A stretch of DNA of 64,000 bases from Candidatus Uhrbacteria bacterium (lineage in GTDB: Bacteria; Patescibacteriota; Patescibacteriia; 2-12-FULL-60-25). A program made the translations under genes and the position numbers. Location of the stretch: positions 1 through 64,000 of the forward strand of contig JAUSEV010000013.1 in assembly GCA_030649995.1 (NCBI GenBank), in the 5' to 3' direction. Under the pieces are notes generated by a model. That model did not search any database. It worked only from the letters and a program-made list of their open reading frames with translations, and had not been told where the DNA came from. The number at the start of each line of letters is the position of its first letter. Within the stretch, counting starts at the first letter, position 1. Positions 1,707-63,326 of the stretch are shown piece by piece.

Positions 1707-2948
1707 ATGAAACAGAACATCACTAAGCCACTCAAAATCCTCGTTGGCATGTCCGGCGGGGTGGATTCGAGCGTGGCTGCGGCACTACTCGTCAAACAAG
1801 GGTTTGACGTGACGGGTGGGTTTATTAAAAACTGGTCGGACAGTAAGGATTTTTGGACCGGGGAATGTGCGTGGCGCGGGGAGAGGCGTGATGCGCTTCG
1901 AGTCGCGGCACAGCTCGACATTCCGCTTCTCACGTTTGATTTTGAAAAGGAGTATCGTCATCGCGTGCTTGATCGGATGTTTGCGGAATATCAAAAAGGT
2001 CTCACGCCAAATCCAGACGTGTTGTGCAATGAGGAGATCAAATTCGGATTGTTTTTTGAGGCGGCGATGCGTCAAGGTTTTGATGGGGTTGCGACCGGTC
2101 ATTACGCGCGGGTGCGTCACGATGGTGATGGGCAAGCGCATCTCTTGAAAGGATTGGATCCCAACAAAGATCAATCTTATTTTTTGCATCGCTTGTCGCA
2201 AAAAGTTTTACAGAAAACTTTATTTCCGATCGGTCATCTTCACAAAACGCGCGTCCGTCAACTCGCGACGCAGATGAAATTGCCGACGGCCAAAAAACCC
2301 GACAGTCAAGGGATTTGTTTTGTGGGGAAACTGGATTTTCATGAATTTTTGCGCAAGCGTATCAAGCCAACACCCGGGGACATCGTGACGCCTGAAGGGT
2401 TGACGGTCGGTCGTCACGATGGATTGGATGCGTACACGATCGGCCAGCGCCACGGATTTTTCGTCAAAGCCCCCCTTCGCGCGGGCTTCCACCATCGCCA
2501 AGGCTATGGCGGACAGGTCGGGGGGCAGGCTTGGTATGTGGCGAAAAAAGATTTCAAAAAAAATCAACTCATCATCGTGCCCTCGCGCGAGCATCCGCTT
2601 TTGTATCAAAAAGAGGCGGTGATAAAGGATGTAAATTGGACTGGGGGTAGGTTACGGCGGGCAGGTTACAGGTTACAGGTTACAGCTGACAGGTTACAGG
2701 GAATTGAGGTAGCGATTCGTTACCGACAGAAACCGGAAAAAGCCAGGCTTGTCATTGCGAGGAGTGAATCTGCGAACGACGCGGCAATCTCTGATTCAGA
2801 TGGGAGATTGCTTCGTCGTAAGACTCCTCGCAATGACAAGGTGAGTTACCGCCTTCTGTTCGACCATCCCGTCTGGGCTTTGGCTCCCGGCCAGTCCGCC
2901 GTTCTCTATCGCGGCGCCGAATGCTTGGGTGGAGGATTTATAGGTTAG
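1707..2948 (+). CDS. mnmA: tRNA-specific 2-thiouridylase MnmA
   Basis: MnmA thiolates U34 of Lys, Glu and Gln tRNAs, taking sulfur from a relay and activating uridine with ATP. The PP-loop SGGVDSS is at residues 15-21. The two catalytic cysteines are visible in NPDVLCNEE and DSQGICFVG. The protein is 413 aa against a usual 355-370. The excess maps to three repeat-derived segments absent from normal homologues: residues about 254-274 (before AWYVAKKD), about 315-331 (a heptamer array) and about 348-378 (a palindromic element encoding LVIARSESANDAAIS). All keep the frame and the C-terminal strand with its final GGGFI motif is intact, so the enzyme is probably functional. The stop codon lies at the start of a 14-unit heptamer array. 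Confidence 0.95.
   Translation: MKQNITKPLKILVGMSGGVDSSVAAALLVKQGFDVTGGFIKNWSDSKDFWTGECAWRGERRDALRVAAQLDIPLLTFDFEKEYRHRVLDRMFAEYQKGLTPNPDVLCNEEIKFGLFFEAAMRQGFDGVATGHYARVRHDGDGQAHLLKGLDPNKDQSYFLHRLSQKVLQKTLFPIGHLHKTRVRQLATQMKLPTAKKPDSQGICFVGKLDFHEFLRKRIKPTPGDIVTPEGLTVGRHDGLDAYTIGQRHGFFVKAPLRAGFHHRQGYGGQVGGQAWYVAKKDFKKNQLIIVPSREHPLLYQKEAVIKDVNWTGGRLRRAGYRLQVTADRLQGIEVAIRYRQKPEKARLVIARSESANDAAISDSDGRLLRRKTPRNDKVSYRLLFDHPVWALAPGQSAVLYRGAECLGGGFIG
2468..2530. repeat. In-frame repeat insertion in mnmA (family C)
   Basis: About 63 bases with GC-rich ends (GCCCCCCTT... and ...GGGGGGCAGG) and an inner segment CGCCAAGGCTATGGCGGAC. It encodes residues that interrupt the conserved stretch between the IGQRHGFF motif and AWYV. 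A related GTCCGCC...GGCGGAT segment lies in the group I intron near 42304-42337. Confidence 0.65.
2650..2700. repeat. Heptamer array, GGTTACA family, inside mnmA
   Basis: Seven units in strict 7-base phase from 2650. Units 1, 3, 4, 5 and 7 are GGTTACA or one change from it, and units 2 and 6 are degenerate. It is translated as part of MnmA (LRRAGYRLQVTADRLQ). Confidence 0.9.
2748..2840. repeat. Palindromic element inside mnmA (family A)
   Basis: A 93-base (31-codon) element with near-perfect terminal inverted repeats, CTTGTCATTGCGAGGAGT at the left and its complement at the right. A shorter relative sits inside alaS at 4768-4833. Both are read in frame. Confidence 0.9.
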
Positions 2949-3042
2949 AAATTAGTAATCAGTAACTCGTAACTCGTAACTAGTTACTGATTACTAGTTA
3001 CTAGTTACTAATCACGAGTTACCAGTTACGCGTTACTCTTAA
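2945..3042. repeat. 14-unit heptamer array filling the mnmA-3070 gap
   Basis: Fourteen consecutive 7-base units (TTAGTAA, CTCGTAA, CTAGTTA and variants) run without a phase break from the mnmA stop codon to base 3042, just before the first ATG of the next frame. Much of it can fold on itself because CTCGTAA/TTACGAG-type units face CTAGTTA-type units. Confidence 0.93.
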
Positions 3043-3069
3043 ATGTGTTTTAATAGTCTCATCCTTTGT

Positions 3070-8346: not shown

Positions 8347-9057
8347 ATGGAACCAATTCTTCTGCCATCCAAAATTCGTTTTACGCATGGCGAGCGTGCC
8401 AATGAAGGGATCATGACCGTCGAGCCTTGCGCGCAAGGGTATGGAACGACGCTCGGGAACGCGATGCGTCGAGTGTTGTTGTCTTCGTTGCCGGGCGCCG
8501 CGGTCACAGCGGTAAAAATAAAAGGCGCGGAACATGAATTTTCCACGTTGCCGAACGTCAAAGAGGATGTGTTGGAAATTATTTTGAATTTAAAGCTGTT
8601 GCGCCTTCGATTATTTTCCGAAGAACCGGTCAAACTGACGTTGACGGTGAAAGGAGAAAAGGAAATCACGGCTGGCGACTTTGCGAAAGACGCTCAAGTG
8701 GAGATTGTGAATCCGGATCTGCATCTTGCGACGCTCACGAATCCTTCGGGCGCGTTTGAGATGGAGGTATGGGTGGGAGCCGGACGCGGATATTACAGCA
8801 CCGAACAGCGTATCAAAGAAAAGTTGGAATTGGGAACCATCGCGATTGATTCTTTATACAGCCCCGTTTTGAATGTGTCTTACAAAGTGGAAGCGACTCG
8901 CGTGGGAGAAAAAACAGACTTTGATAAACTCATTCTCAAAATCGAAACCGATGGAACTTTGGATCCACTGGAAGCGGCCAAGCAAGCGGTCACGATTTTG
9001 TTGGACTACGTCAATATCCTCAAAGACTTGACTTATGCAGAGGAAGCTAGTAACTAG
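8347..9057 (+). CDS. rpoA: RNA polymerase alpha subunit, N-terminal domain only
   Basis: At 236 aa this has the complete dimerisation and assembly domain: TVEPCAQGYGTTLGNAMRRV, LLSSLPGAAVTAVKIKG, then the EGT-type insert domain and the closing helix DPLEAAKQAVTILLDYVNIL. It ends at YAEEASN. The usual flexible linker and C-terminal domain (about 80 residues, which bind UP elements and activators) are missing. The final three codons and the TAG stop are part of a heptamer array (9047-9074), and rplQ starts 26 bases later. A deletion at the repeat may have removed the C-terminal domain, or the short form may be ancestral. Confidence 0.95.
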   Translation: MEPILLPSKIRFTHGERANEGIMTVEPCAQGYGTTLGNAMRRVLLSSLPGAAVTAVKIKGAEHEFSTLPNVKEDVLEIILNLKLLRLRLFSEEPVKLTLTVKGEKEITAGDFAKDAQVEIVNPDLHLATLTNPSGAFEMEVWVGAGRGYYSTEQRIKEKLELGTIAIDSLYSPVLNVSYKVEATRVGEKTDFDKLILKIETDGTLDPLEAAKQAVTILLDYVNILKDLTYAEEASN

Positions 9058-9074
9058 TCACTAGTAACTAGCCA
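9047..9074. repeat. Heptamer array containing the rpoA stop codon
   Basis: Four units CTAGTAA, CTAGTCA, CTAGTAA, CTAGCCA in strict phase. The rpoA TAG stop (9055-9057) is part of the second unit. The same heptamer family forms the array at 2945-3042. Confidence 0.9.
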
Positions 9075-9082
9075 CCTGAATT

Positions 9083-9436
9083 ATGCGCCATCGACGTAAA
9101 GGAAAAACTTTGGATCGGAAGAATGGGCCTCGTAACGCCTTGCTTCGGCAGTTGGCAACGTCGGTGATTTTGTATGAGCATATCAATACCACGCTCGCCA
9201 AAGCCAAAGCGATTAAACCGATCGTGGAAAAATTGATCACCAAAGGGAGACAAAAATCCTTGGCGACCCGTCGATTTTTGCTCAAGGAGATTGTGCAAGA
9301 GTCGGCCGTCAACAAGATTTTGGAAGAATTGGGACCGCGTTACGCCACGCGTCCGGGCGGTTATACTCGTATCATTAAATTGAGTCCTCGTAAGGGGGAT
9401 GGTGCGGAAGTGGCGCAGATACAGTTGGTAAAGTAA
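9083..9436 (+). CDS. rplQ: 50S ribosomal protein L17
   Basis: A 117-aa protein near the peptide exit tunnel. MRHRRKGKTLDRKNGPRNAL, the helix ALLRQLATSVILYEHINTTL and the end GYTRIIKLSPRKGDGAEVAQ are typical. It follows rpoA as in most bacteria. The stop codon is immediately followed by another heptamer array, and no Shine-Dalgarno sequence precedes the ATG. Confidence 0.97.
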   Translation: MRHRRKGKTLDRKNGPRNALLRQLATSVILYEHINTTLAKAKAIKPIVEKLITKGRQKSLATRRFLLKEIVQESAVNKILEELGPRYATRPGGYTRIIKLSPRKGDGAEVAQIQLVK

Positions 9437-9463
9437 TTAGACATTAGTCATTAGACATTAAGA
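9436..9463. repeat. Heptamer array between rplQ and rplM
   Basis: Four units ATTAGAC, ATTAGTC, ATTAGAC, ATTAAGA fill nearly the whole gap between the rplQ stop codon and the rplM ATG at 9466. Confidence 0.88.
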
Positions 9464-18740: not shown

Positions 18741-20180
18741 ATGTCTCAAAGTCAAACCATCGCGAAAAACGCGGCGTGGCTCATGGTGGCTACGACCGGG
18801 CAAAAGATTATTTCGTTTTTAACGTTCACTTTCATCGCCCGATTTGTGGGGGTTGAGATTACGGGAAAATATTTTTTCGCCGTGTCCGTGACATCGATTT
18901 TCGTGATCCTCGCGGATTTGGGATTGACACCGGTCGTGATCCGTGAGATGGCGGCGGATGCTGAGCGCGGACGCGCGGTTCTGGCGAGCGCTTTGCGTCT
19001 CAAATGGATTTTGATTCCGTTCGCCATCCTTAGCTCGCTCGCGTATATTTTGTTGACGCACGGCGGTCAAGAAATGCTGCTCGCCGTAGCTTTAGCGTGT
19101 CTTGTCATGTCATCAGACGCAGTTTCGCTTACTTGGTATGGTGCGATTCGCGGTCGTCAGCAATTGCGCTATGAAGCTTGGGGAATGTTCATCGGACAAT
19201 GTTTGACGGCGATCGTGAGTCTTACCGCAATTTTTTTTCACGCCGGCGTTTTGGGACTCATCTTTGGACTTTTTTGCGGAAGCGCGTGGAATGTGATTTG
19301 GAGTATCACCCACACCCACCGTCTTCTCCATTCTCATTCCGCATTACCCATTACCCATTACCCATTACGGCTATTGCTCCGCGCGGCACTCCCGTTCGCC
19401 CTCGCCGGCATTTTCGTCAAAGTATATTCGTATGTGGACACGTTGTTGCTCAAACAATTTCATGATGTGATCGCGGTTGGATATTATTCGGTCGCGTACA
19501 AATTGGTCTATTCATTTCAATTTTTACCCATGACTTTTGTCGCCGCGCTCTATCCCGGCATGAGTGCTGCCTCTGCCGTCAAAGATCATCAGGCCTTGCG
19601 AACGATTTTGCGCGGATCCATGCGGCTCATGATGCTCCTCGCCATCCCCATCACGGTCGGTTTGTCGGCTCTCGCGCCAGGCCTCATCCACTTTTTATAC
19701 GGGGCGCGTTTTTCCGGTGCCGCTGATGCTTTGATGATTCTGCCGTGGGTCACAATCCCGTTGTTTCTCGATTTTCCCATTGGATCACTATTAAACGCCA
19801 CGCATCGCGCGCATCAAAAAACTATTGCCATGGGCATAACAATGATCGTCAGTATCATCGCGAACGTGATGTTGGTGCCGGCGTACGGGCCGGTGGGTGC
19901 GGCGTGGGCCGGAGTGATCAGTTTTTGGATGTTGTTTTTGATCGGCGTGTGGTTTGTGCGCCATGATATTGATTGGGCGTGGGGGGTGCCATTTTTTTTA
20001 CGAGGAATCATCATCGCCTTTATTGGTTGGTTGGTTCTTAAATGGTTGGCCGGATTTTTTTCCATTATTCCTCTGATTGCGGTCGCGATCGTGCTGATCG
20101 TTTTTCTGTTGTGGATCGGAAAAATTTTTGTGCCCGAGGATTTTCATCTCATGCAAAAATGGTTTAAAAAAATCGAATGA
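18741..20180 (+). CDS. Lipid-linked oligosaccharide flippase (Wzx/MATE-like)
   Basis: A 479-aa protein of about 12-14 membrane helices. NAAWLMVATTGQKIISFLTF at the start, LADLGLTPVVIREMAAD after the second helix and GYYSVAYKLVYSFQFLPMTF are hallmarks of the polysaccharide-synthesis (RfbX/Wzx) flippases, which move undecaprenyl-linked sugar units across the membrane. It heads a glycan cluster with GT4, GT2 and ligase-like genes. Residues about 198-210 (ALPITHYPL region), in the loop between two helices, come from a CCATTAC heptamer array. It starts three bases after the UbiB-like stop, so the transcripts may be joined. Confidence 0.85.
   Translation: MSQSQTIAKNAAWLMVATTGQKIISFLTFTFIARFVGVEITGKYFFAVSVTSIFVILADLGLTPVVIREMAADAERGRAVLASALRLKWILIPFAILSSLAYILLTHGGQEMLLAVALACLVMSSDAVSLTWYGAIRGRQQLRYEAWGMFIGQCLTAIVSLTAIFFHAGVLGLIFGLFCGSAWNVIWSITHTHRLLHSHSALPITHYPLRLLLRAALPFALAGIFVKVYSYVDTLLLKQFHDVIAVGYYSVAYKLVYSFQFLPMTFVAALYPGMSAASAVKDHQALRTILRGSMRLMMLLAIPITVGLSALAPGLIHFLYGARFSGAADALMILPWVTIPLFLDFPIGSLLNATHRAHQKTIAMGITMIVSIIANVMLVPAYGPVGAAWAGVISFWMLFLIGVWFVRHDIDWAWGVPFFLRGIIIAFIGWLVLKWLAGFFSIIPLIAVAIVLIVFLLWIGKIFVPEDFHLMQKWFKKIE
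19334..19368. repeat. Heptamer array, CCATTAC family, inside the flippase gene
   Basis: TCATTCC, GCATTAC, then three CCATTAC units in phase. Its reverse complement, TAATGGG-type, matches the array at 59061-59088. Confidence 0.88.
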
Positions 20181-20181
20181 T

Positions 20182-21291
20182 ATGTCCCGCGCTTCCATCG
20201 CTCTTGTGACTCTTGATTATCCGCCGGAACAGGGAGGCGTGGCGCGTTATCTCGGAAATTTGGTTCACGCGTCAAACGGCGCGATAGATGTGTTTGTGCC
20301 GGAAACGCATCAAGCGTCAGGTCCGGGACACGTCCGTCAAGCCCATTTTTTTTCACGCGGTTGGCCTGCCTGGAGGCCTATGATCGGATTTATTCGATCA
20401 TTGTCGCGCCGTGGATATTCCTACGCGCTCATCAGTCACGCGCTTCCGATTGGGACGGCCGCTTGGTTGAGTCGATTGATGGGCGGACCAAAATACGCCG
20501 TTTTGTTTCACGGGTTGGATTTGCGGTTGGCACTTCGATCAAAAAAAACAAGATGGGTGTTGCATCGTGTTTTGCGCGGCGCCTCGCTCGTGATCGCGAA
20601 CTCGCAATTTGTCGCGCAGGAGATCCGTCAATTTGATGCAACGATCAAGCCAACGGTCATCACGCCGGCAGTCGAGTCGCTCGAATTTTCCGATCGAACC
20701 ACGGCTCGTCAAAATTGTGATGTATCAGATCAATCATTTATTATTTTGGCCGTAGCGCGGCTCGTGATGCGCAAGGGAATCGATCATTTGATCGAAGCGA
20801 TGAGCGAACTGCCATCGCACGCCAAACTCGTCATCATCGGCGACGGGCCGGAGGCGGCTAGCTTACAGCTTACAGCTCAAAGCTTACAGCTTTCCGCACG
20901 CGTCACGTTTATTCCTCACGCGACCGATCATGAACGCAACGCGTGGTATGCGGCGGCGGATATTTTTGCGTTGCCAGCGCGAGACCAAGGGAGCGACGTC
21001 GAAGGGTTTGGTATCGTCTATTTGGAAGCCGCGCTCGCAGGGTTGCCGGTCATTGCCGGGAAAAGCGGGGGAGCTGGAGAGGCGGTTATCAATGGAGTGA
21101 CGGGGATGTTGATCGAACCGAATGATCAAGCGGCTCTCATATCAGCGATTCAAAAGTTTATGGACGATCCCGCTCTCCGAGAACGCATGGGTGAGGCTGG
21201 ACGGGAACGAGTCATGAAAGATTTTCGATGGGAGGAGAGGTGGGAGAGATTGAAAACCATCCTCCGCGAGGAAGATGGCCATGGGATGTGA
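20182..21291 (+). CDS. Glycosyltransferase family 4
   Basis: A 369-aa GT-B fold enzyme that transfers a sugar from a nucleotide donor to a lipid-linked or glycan acceptor. The N-terminal domain shows the glycine-rich loop YPPEQGGVARYLGNL. The C-terminal donor-binding half has VARLVMRKGIDHLIEAM, IIGDGPEA, and the EX7E motif in EGFGIVYLEAALAGLPVIAG. A heptamer array encodes SLQLTAQSLQLSA just after GDGPEA, in place of the usual helix but with about the normal length. The ATG at 20182 comes one base after the flippase stop. Confidence 0.9.
   Translation: MSRASIALVTLDYPPEQGGVARYLGNLVHASNGAIDVFVPETHQASGPGHVRQAHFFSRGWPAWRPMIGFIRSLSRRGYSYALISHALPIGTAAWLSRLMGGPKYAVLFHGLDLRLALRSKKTRWVLHRVLRGASLVIANSQFVAQEIRQFDATIKPTVITPAVESLEFSDRTTARQNCDVSDQSFIILAVARLVMRKGIDHLIEAMSELPSHAKLVIIGDGPEAASLQLTAQSLQLSARVTFIPHATDHERNAWYAAADIFALPARDQGSDVEGFGIVYLEAALAGLPVIAGKSGGAGEAVINGVTGMLIEPNDQAALISAIQKFMDDPALRERMGEAGRERVMKDFRWEERWERLKTILREEDGHGM
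20861..20893. repeat. Heptamer array, GCTTACA family, inside the GT4 gene
   Basis: GCTTACA, GCTTACA, GCTCAAA, GCTTACA and a partial GCTTT, in strict 7-base phase. The unit differs by one base from the GGTTACA unit in mnmA. Confidence 0.85.
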
Positions 21292-41934: not shown

Positions 41935-42547
41935 GAACAATCGTCGTTTGTCACTACAATAGTTGTATATGACAAAAAGGCGAACCTATGCCGACCGTGC
42001 CGATTATCTTAAGAAGGCGGTTGCTAAGCGCAGAACCAAAATTCGTCAGTTGGCTGTGGATTTTAAGGGAGGCCAATGTGTCATTTGTGGATATCATAAA
42101 TGCATTGCAGCCCTTGAATTCCATCATCCGGATCCGTCGAAAAAAGATTTCAGTATTTCGGCGGATGGGCTGACGCGTTCATGGGATCGTGTGAAAAAAG
42201 AAGTTCGCAAGTGTGTTCTTCTTTGTGCAAACTGTCATCGAGAGATTCACGCCGGTATAACGCAGCTTCCGATGGTAACATCGGTTGAAAAATGAGGTGA
42301 ATTGTCCGCCTACGCCTAACATAGGTTATGGCGGATCCCATGAAGCTGAATGCGAAGTGGGACTGGAAGCCTAAAGCCGTCGATCGGATGGCGATGGTAA
42401 TCAGCAGCCAAGCCCCGACATCGGTTGGGGAAGGTTCAGAGACTATCCCGCAAGGGAGTAGGGTCGAGAGATCGATCCGAAGCGCCTCAGTCCGACACTC
42501 GTCGGACAAGATATAGTCCATCCTTCGTGGAAACACGGAGACAAATG
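41935..42547 (+). mobile_element. Group I intron in the tRNA-Asn anticodon loop
   Basis: A 613-base intron that would splice itself out after U34+1 of the anticodon region and end in the expected terminal G (42547). The conserved core is plain: Q/P-like TAATCAGCAGCCAAGCC (42398-42414), R-like AAGGTTCAGAGACTA (42431-42445) and S-like AAGATATAGTCC (42508-42519). The P7 pairing is GACTA/TAGTC. A possible P1 forms between exon GTGAC...GT and GTCAC at about 41959. The 5' part contains an HNH endonuclease gene. A GTCCGCC...GGCGGAT hairpin near 42304-42337 resembles the family C repeat in mnmA. Confidence 0.85.
41969..42295 (+). CDS. Intron-encoded HNH homing endonuclease
   Basis: A 108-aa protein. 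A basic helical N-terminus (KRRTYADRADYLKKAVAKRR) is followed by an HNH/zinc domain: CVICGYHKCIAALEFHHPDP supplies the first Cys pair and the catalytic His-His, and VRKCVLLCANCHREIHAG supplies the second Cys pair, Asn and His. It would cut intronless tRNA-Asn genes to spread the intron. All key residues are present, so it may be active. ATG 41969 is used; a TTG two codons earlier is possible. Confidence 0.9.
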   Translation: MTKRRTYADRADYLKKAVAKRRTKIRQLAVDFKGGQCVICGYHKCIAALEFHHPDPSKKDFSISADGLTRSWDRVKKEVRKCVLLCANCHREIHAGITQLPMVTSVEK

Positions 42548-56990: not shown

Positions 56991-58097
56991 TTATTCTCCT
57001 TTGCCTCTTCGTTTGATCGCGACACTCTCCGCCAGGCCGATGCTGATAAAGGCTACCACCAAAGAGGACGCGGCAGCCGAGAGAAAAGGCATGGGGAGTC
57101 CGGTGATCGGCATGATGCCAAGATTCATGCCGCCGTTTACCGTAATATGAATAAGAAATCCCGCGCCGAGTCCGATCAAAAGGAGGGCGGCAAAATCCTC
57201 GCCCGATTCTTCCGCCAATCGAATAAAGCGATAGAGAATAAGCAGGAAAAGTCCCAAGACGATGGAAATTCCGATAAATCCAAGCTCCTCTCCAATGACC
57301 GCAAACATAAAATCCGTGGCGGCTGCCGGCAAAAATCGTAAGCGGGCTTGCGAGCCCTCGCCGATTCCTTTTCCAAACCAACCGCCGGAGCCGATCGCGA
57401 TATGCGCTTGAGCGGCGTTGTAACTGGCTCCTCGCGGATCGGATCCCGGATGAAGAAATGTCAAAATACGTTCCTGCTGATAGGGTTTGAGTCCCACTGA
57501 CCACACCAAGCCGCTTAACGCAAGAACCGCCAGAGGCAGAAAGAACCATGCGCGATGCGGCAAGCGGGCAAACAAACTCAACAGGACCCAGATTCCAACC
57601 AAAACCATGCCGGATCCAAAATCCGGTTGCAGGAAAACGAGAGCCGCGTACGCAAATGTGGCGCATCCGCTTAAACCGAATTCTCGCCAGCTCAAGCGGC
57701 CGTGACTTCGTCTGGCAAAAAGCGCGGCAAGATAAATCGTCAACGTGACTTTGGCTATTTCCACCGGTTGAAAGGAGAGGCTGCCCAGCCGGAACCATCC
57801 TTGAGTGTGACGAATGGTGTGGCCGAAAAAAAGAACGGTAGTCAGAAGCAACCCGCCGCCGAGATAGAGAAGAAAGCTATAAGCCTTCATCTGCCGATAA
57901 TCCAATGAAATAAGAACAACGATCGCCGTAAGCCCCAAGAGGGCTGCGACGAGTTGTTTGTAAAAGGGAAATAGATCGGCGGGTTCACGGGAAACGCCGA
58001 TCCCATAAATTTCCACCAGCCCAAGCGCCGCTAAAACGATTGCCGCCGTGACAAGGGTCCAGTCAAATCGTTCCAGCCGTTCAAGAAGATGTGGCAT
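56991..58097 (-). CDS. rodA: RodA/FtsW-type SEDS glycosyltransferase
   Basis: A 368-aa membrane protein with about ten helices that polymerises lipid II into glycan strands during elongation or division. SEDS markers are HTQGWFRLGSLSFQPVEIAK, LQPDFGSGMVLVGIWVLL, IAIGSGGWFGKGIGEGSQ, FLPAAATDFMFAVIGEELGF and GIMPITGLPMPFLS. The acidic catalytic residue (QPDFGS) is present. The lack of a long N-terminal extension and the short length fit RodA better than FtsW. A partner class B penicillin-binding protein is not in the window. Confidence 0.92.
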   Translation of the reverse strand: MPHLLERLERFDWTLVTAAIVLAALGLVEIYGIGVSREPADLFPFYKQLVAALLGLTAIVVLISLDYRQMKAYSFLLYLGGGLLLTTVLFFGHTIRHTQGWFRLGSLSFQPVEIAKVTLTIYLAALFARRSHGRLSWREFGLSGCATFAYAALVFLQPDFGSGMVLVGIWVLLSLFARLPHRAWFFLPLAVLALSGLVWSVGLKPYQQERILTFLHPGSDPRGASYNAAQAHIAIGSGGWFGKGIGEGSQARLRFLPAAATDFMFAVIGEELGFIGISIVLGLFLLILYRFIRLAEESGEDFAALLLIGLGAGFLIHITVNGGMNLGIMPITGLPMPFLSAAASSLVVAFISIGLAESVAIKRRGKGE

Positions 58098-58108
58098 GGG
58101 GAGGAATT

Positions 58109-58136
58109 AAGAAGCAAGAATCAAGAAGCAAGAAGC
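58109..58136. repeat. Heptamer array, AAGAAGC family
   Basis: AAGAAGC, AAGAATC, AAGAAGC, AAGAAGC in phase, between the RodA start and the next upstream gene's stop. The reverse complement GCTTCTT matches the array at 63285-63326. Confidence 0.85.
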
Positions 58137-58157: not shown

Positions 58158-59036
58158 TCAGAAACGATTGCTTGGCAAATAGGCAGACGGATCTAAAACA
58201 TTTATACTCGCGCGTATTTCGGTTTTGGTGATGTCCGGAAGATTTTCAAACCAATGGACGGTGATCGGCCTTGATTCACCAGGTTTTATTTCTCGTTCCG
58301 TGATGGTTGTAACGGCCATGAGCGTGTCTCTGCGGTAGAGCAAGATCGTGAGATCAACGGCCCAAAATCCGTAGGCGCTCGCGTTTTTTAAGACAAAAGA
58401 TGTTTGCCCCACGCGATGGCTGTCCAGCGTCAAATCATTTTTATAGGCGATGGCATCAAAAGTGATCTGTGAGCGCTTGGCAAGAAACGAAGAATAATTA
58501 CGCTCGACTAATTCCGGTTTCAGACGATGCCACGCCATGTCGCTCACCTGGAATTGGCCGGAGCGACCCGCGCCCTTTCCTTTCCATCCCAGCTCGGTTA
58601 AATACCGCTGACTTTGCGGCAGGAGGTATCCGCGTCGAGCCGGCGTGGGTTCCCCGTCAACCATAAAGCGATAGGTAAAATCGACCCACCAGTTTGAGTT
58701 GGGGTTGGTGGCGAGGATTAAAAAATCCTGACGGTTTTCGGTTGATGAAAAAGCGAGAACCTCGCTGGTTTGGATGGATTGCGGCGCGGAACTTTGCAGG
58801 CCTTCCGGATTTAAACCGTGTTGAACGATGGTTTGCGTGATGCGCGATTCGCGCGGATAAGAGATAACGTAGGTATCCAATACAGACCACAAAATAAAAC
58901 TCCAAAAAACAATATTGAGAACGATAAGCGTTCCGTATCCCAAGCGATGCAACCCCGGTCGATGCCGCACCCACCAAGAAGCAAGTTTGAGTTCCTCCTC
59001 CGTCATTCCGCTGCCGATCTGATGATTGTTGGACAT
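58158..59036 (-). CDS. Membrane-anchored hypothetical protein
   Basis: A 292-aa protein with one helix (about 33-58, GYGTLIVLNIVFWSFILWSV) after a basic cytosolic start, and a large outer beta-rich domain (NPNSNWWVDFTYRFMVDGEP then ITEREIKPGESRPITVHWFE). The C-terminus looks like an Ig or FN3-type sandwich. No family name. It lies upstream of rodA on the same strand and may be co-transcribed, which would suggest a cell-wall link. Confidence 0.65.
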   Translation of the reverse strand: MSNNHQIGSGMTEEELKLASWWVRHRPGLHRLGYGTLIVLNIVFWSFILWSVLDTYVISYPRESRITQTIVQHGLNPEGLQSSAPQSIQTSEVLAFSSTENRQDFLILATNPNSNWWVDFTYRFMVDGEPTPARRGYLLPQSQRYLTELGWKGKGAGRSGQFQVSDMAWHRLKPELVERNYSSFLAKRSQITFDAIAYKNDLTLDSHRVGQTSFVLKNASAYGFWAVDLTILLYRRDTLMAVTTITEREIKPGESRPITVHWFENLPDITKTEIRASINVLDPSAYLPSNRF

Positions 59037-59060
59037 GGAGACAGTATAACAAAGTGTGGC

Positions 59061-59088
59061 GTAATGCGTAATGAGTAATGGGTAATGA
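59061..59088. repeat. Heptamer array, GTAATGG family
   Basis: GTAATGC, GTAATGA, GTAATGG, GTAATGA in phase, upstream of the 58158-59036 gene. Same family as the flippase array at 19334 read on the other strand. Confidence 0.87.
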
Positions 59089-60871: not shown

Positions 60872-63227
<2,356 letters not shown>

Positions 63228-63284: not shown

Positions 63285-63326
63285 CTTCATCATTCTTGAT
63301 TCTTTATTCCTGCTTCCTACTTCTTC
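63285..63326. repeat. Heptamer array in the rplY leader
   Basis: Six units in phase: CTTCATC, ATTCTTG, ATTCTTT, ATTCCTG, CTTCCTA, CTTCTTC. It ends three bases before the ATG, so it forms most of the 5' untranslated region. Confidence 0.87.

Follow-up and report, generated by a model that had tools for sequence, protein, structure and literature searches.

Dispersed seven-base arrays and heptad-armed fold-backs in a draft Candidatus Uhrbacteria genome

Cyanobacteria reportedly carry degenerate, dispersed STRR heptamers, and small dispersed repeats are said to be embedded in their heptamer arrays (accounts attributed to Mazel in 1990 and Elhai in 2008); the arrays described here are similar to them, in that the heptamers are degenerate and dispersed and short elements are tied to heptamer arrays. 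Two further heptamer systems are closely comparable. Rehm et al. (2015; PMC4692102) described GGGAATC heptamers in Xanthomonas and GGGGA(C/T)T heptamers in Nostoc and favoured G-quadruplexes as their basis, and MacGregor (2015; PMC4679880) described TAACTGA direct repeats upstream of start codons in Beggiatoaceae, for which post-transcriptional regulation was suggested; the latter paper also summarises the finding of Mrazek that, in most of the genomes studied, long simple repeats are most often heptanucleotides. A system of another type is that of REP/BIME elements with their RAYT transposases (Nunvar 2010; PMC2817692), which are, like the elements considered here, lineage-specific dispersed extragenic palindromes.

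We analysed a stretch of 64,000 nucleotides (the window) from the genome of Candidatus Uhrbacteria (Patescibacteria), an uncultured bacterium with small cells; the genome is a 1.08 Mb draft in 50 contigs that is 99% complete and probably metagenome-derived. Arrays were scored as lag-7 segments with a score of at least 11, and the null for the window was a set of 100 order-3 Markov shuffles. An earlier note had described 7-base arrays here, and the observation holds: the window contains 9 arrays against a shuffle mean of 0.07 (maximum 1), and outside period 7 and its harmonic 14, each period from 4 to 15 yields only 0–2 arrays. Nine of the ten arrays that it listed pass the strict scan; the tenth, at 62604 (CAAAGTC, inside gyrB), is sub-threshold and is reported by TRF only as a weak 14-mer. 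The repeats of the window are:

2662..2700, + strand: one-armed array of AGGTTAC/AGCTGAC words, in frame inside mnmA (residues ~319-331, GYRLQVTADRLQ)
2751..2837, no strand assigned: palindromic repeat GTCATTGCGAGG...CCTCGCAATGAC, in frame inside mnmA in the same variable loop, dispersed, not heptad-based
2945..3036, no strand assigned: focal two-armed array, with a GTAAYNN left arm at 2955-2979, an RTTACNN right arm reaching 3036 and a loop near zero
9047..9071, + strand: array CTAGTAACTAGTCACTAGTAACTAG in the rpoA-rplQ gap, taking in the stop codon of rpoA
9436..9460, + strand: (ATTAGAC/ATTAGTC)n array between rplQ and rplM
19324..19368, + strand: in-gene (CATTACC)n array in a polysaccharide-biosynthesis flippase gene
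20860..20892, + strand: in-gene (AGCTTAC)n array in a glycosyltransferase gene, equal in length to the loop of a relative and thus replacement-like
58109..58136, - strand: array of the pyrimidine-rich family, GCTTCTTGATTCTT on the sense strand of the gene, immediately upstream of an ftsW/rodA-type gene (56991-58097, minus strand)
59059..59087, + strand: one-armed GTAATGN array upstream of a minus-strand gene (58158-59036)
63286..63323, + strand: array of the pyrimidine-rich family (ATTCTTGATTCTTTATTCCTGCTTCC), with its end 6 nt upstream of a start codon

The focal array, which is the longest, overlaps the mnmA stop codon (gene at 1707-2948). It had been described as 14 units that exactly fill an intergenic gap; we count 13 units, and an exact fit requires the next gene to start at 3043, whereas our own simple gene caller prefers 3070. 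The claim that some arrays lie partly inside core genes is correct, mnmA being an example. The window also contains an RpoA (8347-9057) of just 236 aa, with Pfam matches to the N-terminal domains alone and none to the alpha-CTD (RpoA is 231-269 aa in those genomes of the order that were readable), and a group I intron match at 42196-42540 (RF00028, 55.1 bits).

The same period dominates well beyond the window. In an unbiased sample of 477 kb (whole stretches from seven contigs, 44% of the genome), we find 108 period-7 arrays, 72 of them intergenic, against 0.0 in shuffles; the harmonic 14 gives 87 and each remaining period from 4 to 15 gives 1–9, so that the excess is restricted to period 7/14. 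By proportion, the whole genome would hold about 245-250 arrays. A codon-preserving null gives the same answer, since 30 arrays lie wholly within genes and none appears after codon shuffling; coding bias therefore does not explain the in-gene arrays. The observation of seven-base arrays is thus confirmed, and a significant excess of a tandem 7-nt unit, with degenerate units at more than 100 mostly intergenic sites even in this 44% of the genome, corresponds to what is seen for the Xanthomonas and Nostoc repeats (PMC4692102), which likewise consist of degenerate 7-nt units, with some four to an array and more than 100 arrays per genome. Here too the modal array length is four units.

The unit families that the earlier note named are real and under-described. 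GTTACTA, GGTTACA, GCTTACA and CCATTAC have a common TTAC core, the TTAC-sharing families here being GTTACTA, CATTACN, AGGTTAC and AGCTTAC, and AAGAAGC is part of another family, which is rich in pyrimidines. Outside the window there are at least five more families. Over the 477 kb, the words present besides the TTAC families include TAGGCNC, ATTAGAC, GAGATAA, TTCTTAA/TTCCTGC and ATGAAGC. Sharing of words between loci is far above expectation: 221 pairs of arrays more than 1 kb apart have a common 14-mer, against 11.7 expected (maximum 20) under permutation of the unit columns inside each array.

Several families share more than their heptads. Family T, of the form ...ATTAG-TCTGRCCGA-ATGTCTAATG..., has five unlinked copies with matching arms and a 16-base core, TTAGTCTGRCCGAATG, set in unrelated flanks; family R is a whole fold-back with a recurring centre (TAGCTA), and family A has three different recurring centres. 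Unit number differs between the copies of an element, and many arrays are one-armed, with words in common but without a common centre. Most of the hairpin pairing is preserved across the five T copies, although covariation is weak (one compensatory pair). The copies have fold-back arms, and no target duplication is obvious around them by eye. Neither a transposase nor a precise element boundary was identified. A pyrimidine-rich family has a repeated end, CTTCCTCCCT, directly before ATG, and another family ends in GAAACGTCAAAC. At three loci elsewhere in the genome (C21:93373, C21:94247 and C38:19523), pyrimidine-rich arrays end in CTTCCTCCCT right before ATGACC, and their leaders have an anti-SD-like CCTCC in place of an SD. 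The arrays are of a kind known from other bacteria, unusually varied here and with clear signs of spread by copying.

Where two arms are present, their order is strongly constrained. Many loci are two-armed, with (GTAANNN)n before and (NNNTTAC)n after a centre of 0-40 nt. With GTAANNNGTAA..TTACNNNTTAC as the GTAA-first pattern, this order outnumbers its opposite by 32 to 0 in this genome and by 71 to 7 in the other 286 genomes of the phylum (103 GTAA-first and 7 TTAC-first over all 287, overlapping matches being counted in both). When the word is left free, the first arm is the purine-richer one in 13 of 16 fold-backs here and in 26 of 30 fold-backs in loci from other phyla, the stretch that brought each of the latter in having been masked. 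Convergent inverted pairs are also a feature of Xanthomonas, with 70-75 of them (PMC4692102), and the pairs here share their fixed polarity.

These observations bear on the proposal that the arrays reflect an active 7-base slippage or templated process. Local replication slippage would create 7-base duplications in place, 7 nt suiting polymerase misalignment and local composition biasing the words; this is the LSSR view of Mrazek as cited in PMC4679880, and it accords with the dominance of period 7 among simple repeats of many genomes (PMC4679880), with the variation in unit number between copies and with the modal length of four. However, pure slippage is unsupported because unlinked loci share both words and non-repetitive centres and because fold-back polarity is fixed; in-gene arrays, moreover, draw on the vocabulary of the genome rather than on local words. 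As the sole cause, slippage is refuted by the shared centres for families T and R and for part of A, and it may account for other arrays; as the general explanation we regard it as unlikely. The templated half of the proposal is compatible with the data. The interpretation offered in the earlier note is, on the whole, partly supported.

We compared the arrays with those of two genus mates (G001 and G002), each at ~60% protein identity to this genome; the G002 stretches were picked for holding arrays. In 18 syntenic comparisons the same family is present in both gaps in 0 and a different family in 2, and the relatives carry arrays at sites that are empty here, although at this protein identity the absence of an intergenic array from a relative cannot date events. 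The gap in G001 that matches the focal array is 24 nt long and array-free, and the array density of G001 is far lower overall (17 in 336 kb). The rplQ-rplM junction, which has a 25-nt ATTAGAC array here, is 3-6 nt long in relatives, and 0 of 20 other readable genomes of the order have an array there; in the rpoA-rplQ gap, two other genomes (G034 and G031) have, by eye, different heptad-like fold-backs. The family survey read 20 kb per genome. The mnmA array at 2662..2700 is an in-frame insertion that none of 22 orthologues in the mnmA family has, and G001 aligns a gap there. Taken together, the absences at rplQ-rplM, at mnmA and in the 18 comparisons support rapid turnover of the arrays. Several in-gene arrays match the length found in a relative, and appear replacement-like rather than lengthening, which simple insertion does not predict.

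Two other features were seen in the course of these comparisons. The palindromic element at 2751-2837, of the GTCATTGCGAGGAGTG...CTCCTCGCAATGAC type, is also missing from the 22 mnmA orthologues; its 12-base end has 17 copies in the 477 kb of this genome and 6 in G001, and at places where a heptamer array stands in this genome, the variable loops of proteins in relatives contain peptides of this type (e.g. APRND, RQVRND). In a ribosomal-protein operon that resembles infC-rpmI-rplT by its peptides (L042; G000:C21:73900-76100), both gaps contain fold-back arrays, and the G001 gaps are a few bases long.

Intergenic loci favour the gaps between co-directional genes, where they lie in 52 of 58 cases (p=7e-5 by base pairs), and the arrays often start inside the upstream stop codon and finish no more than 15 nt from the next start. 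Among 22 arms, GTAA words are present at 8 of the 11 near a stop and TTAC words at 10 of the 11 near a start (Fisher p=0.0075); scored by purine content, the stop/start strand rule has p=0.036. This agrees with the Xanthomonas and Nostoc repeats (PMC4692102), which are chiefly between aligned ORFs, with the sense strand near stops and the antisense strand near starts. In-gene arrays are mostly on the stop-free strand, and 29 of 36 have antisense stops where about a third would be expected, as would follow if all arrays drew on one vocabulary and orientation then acted as the filter, and not from a local origin. A stop on some strand is found in 60 of 65 co-directional arrays, compared with 52% of random heptamers. 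We also considered a stop-codon cassette, with heptads placing stops in all frames from both sides, as the general cause, and rejected it because the in-gene arrays have antisense stops and because words in other phyla (TGGGGAT, GGGAGCA) lack stops.

An array ends within 20 nt of the start codon of 39 of 401 genes, and an SD-like motif is present in 5% of genes with an array at the start, compared with 25% of other genes. It might be supposed from these figures that the arrays are selected regulatory elements, i.e. intercistronic hairpins or heptad binding sites steering mRNA stability or translation, acting post-transcriptionally as proposed for TAACTGA; the strand and position rule would suit such a role, as would the stable RNA fold of the focal array (-33.1 kcal/mol, z -4.9). 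We consider this quite unlikely, as the arrays are not conserved at matching sites, fall into many families of unrelated words, are present inside genes as well and show the weak covariation noted above; furthermore, purifying selection can also yield the orientation rule.

The closest described systems differ from the arrays in other respects. The TAACTGA repeats (PMC4679880) are likewise intergenic heptamers just upstream of start codons, patchy across phyla and with a TAA-bearing word, but they consist of a single word in direct repeats (one inverted case), mostly in one orientation, and the arrays of this genome are not direct single-orientation TAACTGA repeats upstream of starts. Unlike Xanthomonas and Nostoc, this genome has many word families rather than one, most of which cannot form G4, as well as shared non-repetitive centres and about a third of its arrays in genes; conservation at matching sites is 83% in Xanthomonas, where much closer species were compared, and is lacking for the arrays here. 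That G-quadruplex repeats, as proposed for Xanthomonas GGGAATC and Nostoc GGGGA(C/T)T, underlie the arrays would accord with the rule of position and strand and the inverted pairing that the two sets have in common (PMC4692102), yet most words of this genome lack G-tracts able to form quadruplexes, and the dominant words (GTAATGN, GTAACTN, TAGGCNC, ATTAGAC and TTCTTAA) are without heptad-spaced runs of at least 3 G. As the rules are shared mostly without G-tracts, we argue that quadruplexes are not the common cause, and we give this explanation the lowest probability of all. It is also very improbable that the arrays are REP/BIME-type elements moved by a transposase of the RAYT (Y1) type: they are dispersed extragenic palindromes, chiefly intergenic and with GTAA-type heads, but their arms are built of heptads, and no Y1_Tnp match, and hence no cognate RAYT, was detected in the 99%-complete genome or in the two genus mates, with positive controls.

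The arrangement is widespread but patchy across bacteria, and the link to heptanucleotide repeats of other bacteria made in the earlier note is supported, although the class is not restricted to cyanobacteria (PMC4692102 and PMC4679880 describe it in Xanthomonas and Beggiatoaceae). Four-unit TTAC arrays are present in 12 of 41 genomes of the order. In 85,000 species genomes, the two-armed GTAATG/CATTAC pattern matches at least 107 stretches, the matches listed including Cyanobacteria, Chloroflexota, Omnitrophota, Nitrospirae, Bacteroidetes, Bacillota and others. Around these loci, which were picked for holding the pattern, the sequence is rich in other period-7 arrays (124 in 548 kb). We give no weight to the presence of GTAATGN in these stretches of many phyla as proof of one transferred element, because array-rich genomes hold so many words that one match is expected. 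At four loci in Nostoc relatives (L160, L184, L227 and L230), GTAATGA fold-backs lie within an apparent larger miniature element with CCGTG...CACGG ends. A reverse transcriptase was also considered as the driver of the arrays and rejected: RVT_1 is present in 17 of 41 genomes without matching their array counts, one genome (G037) having many arrays and no RT and G001 having four RT matches and no TTAC arrays.

We think it probable, on balance, that the arrays are dispersed heptad-armed fold-back elements that have been copied round the genome, have changed in length by slippage and are under selection on orientation. The excess, the word families, the common centres, the polarity, the rules of context and the absence from matching sites in relatives are direct observations, from which we infer that elements spread by copying, that unit number changes by slippage and that selection is the source of the orientation rule. 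A typical element would have 3-8 heptad units in its 5' arm and their reverse complements in its 3' arm, with 0-40 nt of centre between the two. Entire elements would be copied into new sites, slippage would then shift their unit numbers, and one-armed or partial copies would also arise. Selection, perhaps against stops, false starts or SD mimicry, would retain copies that spare genes and gene starts; the retained copies would be those in co-directional gaps, often supplanting the stop codon of the gene before them and the leader of the gene after them. Arms of the GTAA type, which bear stops, would be on the side of the stop, and those of the TTAC or pyrimidine-rich type on the side of the start. 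Copies inside genes would persist in loops and on the stop-free strand, and in mRNA the fold-backs would make intercistronic hairpins.

A broader suggestion, which we put forward tentatively and think rather unlikely, is that transposase-independent mobile heptad fold-backs form a widespread and unnamed class, active in many phyla, in which templated repair or retro-type copying sets both the seven-base period and the purine-arm-first polarity. Explanations of heptamer repeats have so far been specific to each case, with quadruplexes for Xanthomonas and the binding of a regulator for Beggiatoa. In this genome one strand and position rule and one inverted pairing are shared across many unrelated words without G-tracts, and the pairing polarity extends to other phyla, which points to a single general and testable cause. 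Repeats have overwritten the leaders at about a tenth of gene starts in this reduced genome, and repeat-derived peptides are present in core enzymes, MnmA among them.
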